Shown here in pieces: positions 23,772 through 26,084 of a stretch of DNA of 33,416 nucleotides. The stretch is taken from contig JAKEEQ010000433.1 in assembly GCA_022616515.1 (NCBI GenBank), positions 1-33,416 on the forward strand. The letters are read 5' to 3'. The stretch is from Chloroflexota bacterium (GTDB taxonomy: Bacteria > Chloroflexota > Anaerolineae > Aggregatilineales > J027). Position 1 is the stretch's first letter; each line of letters opens with the position of its first letter. Below the pieces are notes generated by a model. That model saw only the letters and a program-made list of their open reading frames with translations, did not search any database and was not told the origin of the DNA. Made by a program: the position numbers and the translations under genes.

Positions 23772-24413
23772 CTAGGGGGCAAGCCGCTGGATTTTCCACG
23801 AGTTATCATCCTGAAGTGAGTATGCGATACGGTCATGTAACCGGCCCGGACGCCCCTGCCAGAATTCAAATCTAAACGGCTTAACGCGATACCCACCCCA
23901 ATGTGGAGGCCGAGGAATGTCCTGTCCTTCAAATTGCTCAATGATACGTGCTGCGCCCTCATCGAGAGTGGCCCTGCTTTCAACCACTGTACTTTGCTCG
24001 GATACCCATGTGGCAATCTGGCTGTCGCGTGGTCGAGTTACGAAGTATGCATCCGAATCAGCAGCAGCGATTTTTTCGACGGTTCCTTCGGCACGTACCT
24101 GTCGCGATAGTTTATCCCAGTAAAAACAGAGCGCTGCGTTAGGATTCTCGGCGATTTCCGTGGCTTTGCGGCTGTTGTAATTTGTGAAGAAGACAAAGCC
24201 CTGCCTGTCAAAACCTTTAAGGAGCACCATCCGTGCCGAGGGCATTCCATTGGCGGTCGCGGTGGCAAGGCTCATCGCATTGGCCTCAACATGATTGGCA
24301 TCAATCGCAGCTTGCAGCCAATTCGCAAATTGTGCAAACGGATCAGCATCCGCGTGTTCAAGGTCCAGCGGTTCGTTCGGATACTCCGTGCGCATGTTGG
24401 AGAATGTCGTCAT
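23772..24413 (-). CDS. pdxH: Pyridoxamine 5'-phosphate oxidase
   Basis: Motifs NAMSLATATANGMPSARMVLLKGFDRQGFVFFTNYNSRKATEIAENPNAALCFYW, PPHWGGYRVKPFRFEFWQGRPGRLHDRIAY. Confidence 0.95.
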   Translation of the reverse strand: MTTFSNMRTEYPNEPLDLEHADADPFAQFANWLQAAIDANHVEANAMSLATATANGMPSARMVLLKGFDRQGFVFFTNYNSRKATEIAENPNAALCFYWDKLSRQVRAEGTVEKIAAADSDAYFVTRPRDSQIATWVSEQSTVVESRATLDEGAARIIEQFEGQDIPRPPHWGGYRVKPFRFEFWQGRPGRLHDRIAYSLQDDNSWKIQRLAP

Positions 24414-24571: not shown

Positions 24572-24696
24572 TTGAGTAAAATACGATAGATGGTTAAAGG
24601 TAATGCGTCTGTTGATTCAGAGGTCAACAGAATGCTACAATATCATCGGACTATTTATCCATCTACTAAGTGACAGTGAAGAAATGAAGCTGAAAC

Positions 24697-24971
24697 AGTC
24701 AACTACCCCGCCGCAAGCGACGGGGCATGTCGGAGAGTACCGGTCTTGCCAACCGTGAAAACGATATGGGTAAGCGGTTGACTAGCCTACCCAAGCCGTA
24801 ATCTCATTGAGGCTAAGGCGTTTGAAGGGAACTCGCAACCTGGGCGTGGCAGCCCGACGCACCGTACGGATGTCCCGCTAGTCTGTACGCCTCTGCGGTT
24901 GTGAGTGGCGAAGGGATTAGTTGCCCCCGCAAGGGGAGATGGTGGGGTGACTCACCAGCGTCTTACCGACG
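24697..24971 (+). ncRNA. Highly structured RNA, HEARO / IscB omega-RNA-like
   Basis: Nested complementarity: ACTCGCAACC (24831-24840) with GGTTGTGAGT (24897-24906); CGTACGGA/TCTGTACG (24863-24870/24882-24889); GGGC/GCCC (24842-24845/24852-24855); CCCC-GCAA-GGGG GNRA hairpin (24925-24936); CGTC/GACG (24959-24971). Motifs AGGCTAAGGC, GACGCACC, GGATGTCCC, AGTC recall HEARO/omega-RNA from memory. Confidence 0.55.
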
Positions 24972-25073
24972 TTAAAGGTTTGGCTTGAGGCGAGCCTTCC
25001 ATTTGGTAAATCGCCTCACTTTATCCGACTAAGTACGAAGGAGAGGCGCTCCTCCTCGCTGCAAGCAACGAGG
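24697..25073 (+). mobile_element. Putative non-autonomous IS200/IS605-like element (no transposase or nuclease ORF)
   Basis: Hairpins near both ends with identical architecture and orientation: 24706-24725 CCCCG.C.CG.CAAG.CG.A.CGGGG and 25054-25073 CCTCG.C.TG.CAAG.CA.A.CGAGG. The ORF track shows no substantial ORF inside. Confidence 0.6.
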
Positions 25074-25091
25074 TTTCCGCGCTAAAATCTA

Positions 25092-26084
25092 ATGACAGAT
25101 GTTCGTCCTTTCGCGCCTATGCCCGGCGATTTAGCACTGGTCAGTCGTCTGGCGAAGTCCCAATTCTTGATGGATAACGCGACCGCTTTTGCGCGTGGCG
25201 TGAACCCGCTTGAATCGGCACTGCTTTCGACTGTACCATTAGCCGATATGGGATTGCCAACGCTCATTTTGCGTGAGGACGATCATGGCTACCTGGGGCA
25301 GATCCGTCATCGTGCAGGTGAACGCCATGCTCAGTTGGTCTGTCTTGCTCCGGTTCCTGAGGAACTTGAGGATGACGAAACACAATGGCTTCATCTCCTT
25401 GACGGGCTGGTACGGGTTGCTGGAAGACGCGGGGCACATATTCTGAAGGCAGAAGTGCCAGAATATGAGTACGAAGTGATCAGGTTGCTGCGCAAGGCTG
25501 GATTCTGGGTATATTCGCGACAGACAATTTATCGCCATAAACCGGGACATTTTGTAGAAGCACCTGAGAATGATCGCTTATGTCTGCGATGGGCAACTGA
25601 CCGCGACAAAAATCGCATCCTGGCCCTTCAAGGACATCTGGTGCCCAGCATTGTTCAACAGGCAATGACTCCTTACGATGATGAGGACTTTCGCGCCCTG
25701 GTCGTCGAAACCTTGCAGGAGGGCCGTCTTGTTGGAAGTCTTGAAGTGGTGGATGGGAAATGCGGATTGCTTGTGAAACCGCTGTTACACCCGGATATTT
25801 TTGAGGCAGAAGCCCAGTGGACGTTTGCCATGGCTCTTCGCTCCTTGCCGAAGGCAGACAAACTCCCGGTGTACTTCTCAATCCCAAACTTCCAGGAATG
25901 GTTGCGGGTAGCGTTGCAATCGCTAAAATTGACCGAAATTGACCGTCAGGTTGTGCTTGTCAAACATATGTCGATAAAAAACCGACAGACTGATGAAATC
26001 GTCCAGGCGGCACGTGAAGTAATCTTTGGCACATCACTGGTGAGTGCCATCGAATTAGGGGTAGATCGCGATACCACTCCCTGA
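25092..26084 (+). CDS. Hypothetical protein, possibly GNAT-like
   Basis: 330-aa ORF starting 19 nt after the right hairpin; HILKAEVPEYEYEVIRLLRKAGFWVYSRQTIYR resembles a GNAT C-terminal segment, otherwise no clear motif. Confidence 0.65.
   Translation: MTDVRPFAPMPGDLALVSRLAKSQFLMDNATAFARGVNPLESALLSTVPLADMGLPTLILREDDHGYLGQIRHRAGERHAQLVCLAPVPEELEDDETQWLHLLDGLVRVAGRRGAHILKAEVPEYEYEVIRLLRKAGFWVYSRQTIYRHKPGHFVEAPENDRLCLRWATDRDKNRILALQGHLVPSIVQQAMTPYDDEDFRALVVETLQEGRLVGSLEVVDGKCGLLVKPLLHPDIFEAEAQWTFAMALRSLPKADKLPVYFSIPNFQEWLRVALQSLKLTEIDRQVVLVKHMSIKNRQTDEIVQAAREVIFGTSLVSAIELGVDRDTTP

Follow-up and report, generated by a model that had tools for sequence, protein, structure and literature searches.

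A probable protein-less mobile element of the IsrB lineage directly preceding a start codon in a Chloroflexota genome

The window, that is, the entire 33,416-nucleotide stretch of DNA that was analyzed (contig JAKEEQ010000433.1 of a Chloroflexota bacterium), contains a segment without a convincing open reading frame (ORF) between a divergent upstream gene, pdxH (encoding pyridoxamine 5'-phosphate oxidase), and a gene encoding a 330-amino-acid protein (Table 1). The latter protein has no family match in Pfam and NCBIfam, and its homologues in the relatives compared, which belong to other genera, are approximately 50% identical. A first-pass annotation had described the segment as an ORF-less, orphan omega-RNA-like element accompanied by neither TnpA, TnpB nor IscB, and indeed none of these was matched within the window contig. 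Both 20-nt hairpins reported to bound the segment proved exact, with the architecture that had been claimed (a 5-bp stem, a C/A mismatch, a 2-bp stem and a CAAG loop), and such subterminal hairpins, a trait of the IS200/IS605 type, are conserved at both ends among the copies of the element. The segment itself is real; its right edge, however, had been placed at 25073, 18 nt too short. On the basis of a boundary rule taken from the exact empty sites of homologous elements, the left edge is at 24698 (GTCAAC...), and the right end continues via TTTCCGCGCTAAAATCTA to 25091, immediately adjoining the ATGA at 25092.

Table 1. Features of the element and its surroundings (positions are those of the window)
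Feature	Position	Strand	Remark
Divergent upstream gene pdxH	23772..24413	-	
Promoter-like site upstream of the element	24612..24641	+	weak, at chance frequency
Left flank (host 5' leader), expected to supply the guide of the omega-RNA	24678..24697	+	expected from IscB/IsrB omega-RNA logic
Whole non-autonomous element, putative orphan IsrB-type omega-RNA	24698..25091 (~394 nt)	+	copies alike from GTCAAC to the base preceding ATGA
Omega-RNA scaffold, HEARO match	24698..25000	+	RF02033, 25.5 bits
Left hairpin CCCCGCCGCAAGCGACGGGG	24706..24725	+	compensatory pair changes in A1 alignment
Omega-RNA core also present in five IsrB-associated RNAs encoded elsewhere in this genome	24778..24923	+	model R1, 127 bits
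Nexus pseudoknot loop CCGCT	24875..24879	+	covaries with partner in other members; mismatched in the window copy
Nexus pseudoknot partner AGGGA	24912..24916	+	in-register mismatch to CCGCT; shifted 4-bp alternative TCCC/GGGA
Shine-Dalgarno (SD)-like GAAGGAG of the right end	25037..25043	+	AAAGGAG in most copies; right-end comparison
Right-end basal stem GGCGC/GCGCT	25045..25083 (25045-25049 with 25079-25083)	+	encloses right hairpin
Right hairpin CCTCGCTGCAAGCAACGAGG	25054..25073	+	seen directly
ATGA, both the target/TAM motif and the start codon of the 330-aa gene	25092..25095	+	homologues align from residue 1
Downstream gene (330 aa)	25092..26084	+	conserved in 58/61 relatives

In its own genome (an assembly of 6.8 Mb in 564 contigs, 80.6% complete), the short element is present in at least seven copies or fragments, several of which stop at contig ends, as repeats do. 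Copies elsewhere in this genome share the same ends and are 89-95% identical to the window element over the whole RNA. A search of all species genomes with a 21-base core pattern gave a single match, an unrelated coding site (L100). No Rfam family was matched in the window at the gathering threshold. With an E-value cut, the covariance-model comparison proposed in the first-pass annotation did bring out HEARO (RF02033) along the whole model (positions 1-211 of 211; E = 0.0027), albeit at 25.5 bits, well under the gathering score of 83 that marks membership of RF02033. Matches to 5.8S rRNA (on the minus strand) and RT-19 from the same search were dismissed as chance. Several sequence motifs had also been likened to those of HEARO and IscB omega-RNAs: CACC, GATG..AGTC and CTG do fall on conserved HEARO positions, whereas AGGCTAAGGC lies in an orphan-specific insertion. 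Single-sequence folding of the window element is moderately unusual (z = -2.0). When 16 RNAs were aligned, 97.5% of the pair cells were standard and 11 pairs were changed on both sides, compared with 32-41% pairing in slid controls of the same 16-RNA structure. Taken together, the 89-95% identical copies, the full-length HEARO match and the compensatory base-pair changes establish that the element is more than a product of chance.

Five further loci in the same genome have only the RNA core in common with the orphan, and in these the core is followed by a gene for a protein of approximately 345 aa. These proteins match the IscB model at positions 3-167 only, carry PLMP, GIDPGS, VEDI and HC.DSW (AHCVDSW) motifs and have RuvC without HNH; their best PDB match is DtIsrB (8dmb; E = 3.9e-45), with the best IscB at 2.5e-9. 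Judged by these sequence comparisons, they are IsrB. The scaffold of the window RNA is homologous to the RNAs encoded just upstream of isrB, and the alignment revealed that the whole core is common, with a helix that is ~25 nt longer in the orphan after GACTAGCC; the 3' end of the orphan RNA then joins the right end directly, at the place where isrB would be. These results support the classification of the window element as a putative protein-less, mobile guide-RNA element of the IsrB lineage and not of the IscB lineage. Since it contains no ORF, and hence no encoded IsrB (PLMP and RuvC, no HNH), and since IsrB is found elsewhere in the genome, we regard it as a non-autonomous derivative and not as a full member of the IsrB OMEGA systems.

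The window species has no close relative among the genomes compared, and the insertion of the window copy was judged by the boundaries of two homologues, L082 and L109. L082 is a 322-nt orphan without an ORF in G004, which represents another genus of the same family. When joined, the flanks of L082 match four other genomes across a gapless junction: the alignment spans their full length in G006, G007 and G009 (95-96%) and query positions 27-492 in the case of G008 (87%). The empty sites are exact in all four genomes, with neither target duplication nor loss, marking L082 as a precise insertion without target duplication. The second homologue, L109 (an IsrB element of G006), is absent from four sister species, with empty sites seen, and ATGA stands directly 3' of every empty-site junction of L082 and L109. 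Insertion at a fixed motif without target-site duplication was thus observed for L082 and L109, and extends to the window copy solely through the boundaries that it shares with them. Empty-site alleles in relatives had been named beforehand as one of three tests, alongside a covariance-model match and further copies with conserved ends; they exist for the homologous orphan in another genus, and all three tests support the core idea of a stand-alone omega-RNA or HEARO-type element that has IS200/IS605-type ends, is mobile and relies on a protein encoded elsewhere. In IscB and IsrB omega-RNAs, the guide lies 5' of the scaffold (PMC9581776). The left-flank (guide) stretch of L082 matches the empty target adjoining ATGA in the relatives. 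The ATGA that immediately follows the insertion point thus has the position, 3' of the target matched by the guide, of an NTGA-type TAM. As for the transposase, we infer mobilization of the window element by a Y1 TnpA in trans; one Y1 TnpA gene was found in the same genome (at C552). The 80.6% complete assembly contains at least 27 TnpB-type genes and this single strong Y1 TnpA gene, and one transposase may serve many element families there.

The position of the element, described at first as gene-proximal, is indeed near a gene and is actually an exact docking at its start codon. All 48 tabulated right ends (37 from the same genome and 11 from five other genomes) abut ATGA (40), ATGG (7) or GTGA (1), an adjacency that is not independent evidence since the right ends were partly collected by motif; one further right end (L027) lacks these motifs. 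The enrichment of ORFs at the docking sites is independent of such collection: an ORF of at least 100 aa is opened by 33 of the 48 right-end motifs (69%), compared with 16-24% of control motifs in the window, and for ORFs of 60 aa or more, including those still open where the locus ends, the figures are 40 of the 48 and 27-34%. Pfam matches indicated true N termini at docking sites for pterin-4a-carbinolamine dehydratase (PCD), FtsH, ornithine carbamoyltransferase (OTC), bL32 and others, the genes downstream of the element copies being unrelated. Left flanks are SD-like (at most -5 kcal/mol) in 15 of 37 cases, against 19% of random sites (p = 2.6e-4), the clearest cases being IsrB elements from G004, G006 and G007; the left flank of the window copy has no strong SD. 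The idea that the four bases before ATGA represent a variable target was dropped when more right ends gave a semiconserved TCTN/TTTT end. The same placement was observed in cyanobacterial plasmids (Leptolyngbya, Stanieria and Nostoc), Anoxybacillus (IscB) and phage Ma-LMM01, and start-codon docking therefore looks general on the cases that were measured; it did not appear in Natranaerobius and Calothrix.

Most right ends (42 of 48) follow one order: an AAAGGAG-like purine run, 2 to 4 nt, a basal stem of 4 to 7 bp, an internal loop, an apical hairpin, the other half of the basal stem and, usually after 7 to 9 nt, ATG. The basal stem scores at least 12 in 88% of right ends, compared with 28% of shuffles, and it varies in sequence yet pairs (GGCGC/GCGCT, GGTGC/GCACC, GGTTCG/CGAACC, GCCGCA/TGCGGC and AGCCGTT/AACGGCT). 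Pairing to the anti-SD (at most -6 kcal/mol) was found 52 to 60 nt before the ATG in 81% of right ends, and an SD immediately before the ATG within the element was excluded, with such pairing at positions -15 to 0 in none. AAAGGAG is read in different isrB frames (RKE, from CGA AAG GAG, in L108; ERS, from GAA AGG AGT, in L109) and persists in orphans without any ORF, and is thus not explained by protein coding. The right end of the orphans does keep a remnant of the C-terminal coding stretch of isrB, and the folding of the right end in the window copy does not surpass that of shuffled sequences (z = -0.62). In phage T4 gene 38, a hairpin is known to bridge the distance from the SD to the start codon. 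The right end would most naturally be read likewise, as a hairpin-bridged replacement ribosome-binding site, its hairpin presumably also serving TnpA.

Alternatively, the ATGA placement might reflect nothing but target specificity and selection against gene disruption, the right-end AAAGGAG being incidental. ATGA fits the known NTGA/ATGA-type TAM (PMC9581776), which would make start codons frequent and safe ATGA sites, and the SD enrichment in left flanks is modest. Against this reading, which we consider possible and rather doubtful, ORFs of 100 aa or more begin at 69% of the sites compared with ~16% of control ATGA, AAAGGAG is kept in ORF-less orphans and differing isrB frames and stands beside a covarying stem at a fixed spacing, and insertions precede essential-type genes (e.g., those for bL32 and FtsH). 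A broader reading is that, whether or not they still encode a protein, OMEGA (IsrB/IscB) elements settle specifically in the gap between SD and start codon, with the host promoter expressing the leader guide, the right-end hairpin forming a bridged ribosome-binding site and start codons offering a safe, self-expressing niche; we hold the case for this generalization to be evenly balanced.

For the window locus, the reading that we consider very likely is that of a non-autonomous OMEGA element, IsrB in lineage and IS200/IS605 in type, that has lost isrB and is docked at a start codon. Loss of isrB, as apparent from the alignment, would have left the left end, the omega-RNA scaffold and the right end; a Y1 TnpA in trans would insert this unit exactly 5' of the ATGA of the 330-aa gene. 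The promoter of the host gene might then transcribe its own leader as the guide, joined to the omega-RNA, and IsrB from one of the five other elements could, by analogy with DtIsrB, nick empty ATGA-flanked alleles and so favor retention or homing of the element. Meanwhile, AAAGGAG, the covarying stem-hairpin and the 7 to 9 nt that follow, an anatomy that is observed, would keep the downstream gene translated. If true, such elements use a host promoter for guide expression and give the host a new ribosome-binding site in return; the SD replacement would permit insertion before a start codon without silencing the gene, which would explain the spread of protein-less guide-RNA elements to dozens of copies, even before the genes for bL32 and FtsH. 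It would also connect start codons with the ATGA TAM of the IsrB/IscB nucleases, from which the Cas9 lineage descends.

Whether the RNA of the window copy still works as a guide is a separate matter, on which the nexus pseudoknot bears. Four IsrB elements and one orphan have CCGCT/AGCGG. The remaining IsrB element has TCCCT/AGGGA, as does each of the seven RNAs from the neighboring genus, and the two versions differ by two compensatory changes. In the window copy and L003, CCGCT occurs together with AGGGA, a combination that is broken in register, and in L002 TCCCT occurs with AGCGG, weakening the pseudoknot; the orphans L138 and L129 keep perfect ones. The pseudoknot is needed in DtIsrB, where mutations that break it abolish nicking (PMC9581776). 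Because of its mismatch, the window copy may, the shifted 4-bp alternative aside, be a weakened guide and a mobile passenger. Taken further, the element might be a MITE-like passenger of which only the ends matter to TnpA, the RNA being the decaying remnant of an IsrB element without guide activity. The in-register mismatches in three of the four core-keeping orphans of this genome and the isrB coding remnant in the right end would fit such decay. Conservation of the core RNA pairs, the 89-95% likeness of the copies along the whole RNA, the perfect pseudoknots of L138 and L129 and the good Rfam scores of ~19 orphan HEARO RNAs in the same genome would not, and we regard this alternative, too, as somewhat improbable.

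Far less probable is that the RNA was exapted as a cis-regulatory 5' untranslated region (5' UTR) controlling the downstream gene, e.g., through IsrB binding. Docking at the start codon would indeed place a structured 5' UTR of ~394 nt in the transcript of that gene, but the genes downstream of the copies are unrelated, the insertions look recent (sister species have empty sites) and full IsrB and IscB elements are placed likewise. Least probable of all is the original version of a HEARO element served by IscB in trans: despite at least 10 IscB loci and more than 30 HEARO matches in the genome, and right ends common to HEARO elements, the RNA core matches IsrB-associated RNAs at more than 120 bits and HEARO weakly, and IsrB, a nickase without HNH, fits as the effector lineage in place of IscB.

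Several known systems resemble the IsrB-lineage element favored here. IsrB OMEGA systems were reportedly described by Altae-Tran et al. in 2021. With the DtIsrB system (PMC9581776), the window element shares the RNA scaffold, in which its family conserves the nexus pseudoknot with compensatory changes, a partner family in the same genome and an NTGA-like motif 3' of the target; it differs in lacking a protein gene, in its extended helix between GACTAG and CAACC and in the mismatched pseudoknot. Stand-alone omega-RNAs working in trans with IscB are on record (PMC9581776, citing its reference 4), so that the kind as such is already known; these have in common with our case protein-less loci beside full elements in one genome, and the IsrB type of the RNA and start-codon docking with documented empty sites set the present element apart. 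HEARO RF02033 is homologous along the full model, and the window RNA, besides its low score, is ~90 nt longer. Finally, non-autonomous derivatives of IS200/IS605 (MITE/PATE type) likewise have subterminal imperfect hairpins, no target-site duplication and no transposase, whereas the window element retains a guide RNA and has a right end resembling a translation start. In the literature searched, neither an IsrB orphan family nor SD/start-codon docking nor a right-end ribosome-binding site was found to be described, the primary 2009 HEARO and 2021 OMEGA papers lying outside that search; within the searchable literature, the orphan family and the docking look new. The 2009 paper is said to have noted HEARO insertion next to ATGA/GTGA, so part of the docking may be known already.

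A few further observations concern related elements. The genome contains ~33 HEARO RNAs (loci L047 to L076) compared with about a dozen IscB genes or fragments, and ~19 further orphan omega-RNA elements are of the canonical HEARO type with good Rfam scores; HEARO-type orphans and IsrB orphans have closely related right ends. In one HEARO element (L031/L037; G000:C413:22813-23403), the IscB gene seems to be split in two, with RNA and right end intact. A third class of omega-RNA (L069, L071 and L073 to L076) starts with GTCAGGAACTCC and has a GCCGCA/TGCGGC right end directly before ATGG, and one copy adjoins the ribosomal protein L32 gene on its upstream side. On plasmid alpha of Nostoc sp. PCC 7120 (L160), dpdE of a Dpd-type locus is immediately preceded by an IsrB-type gene; since an in-frame ATGATTAAG follows the right end of the element, the GTG annotated as the dpdE start probably lies ~21 nt too far downstream. 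In Microcystis phage Ma-LMM01 (L162), an IsrB-like element also stops at an ATGA start codon, and several GTCACTAACCCCG-like left-end fragments form a tandem repeat upstream.
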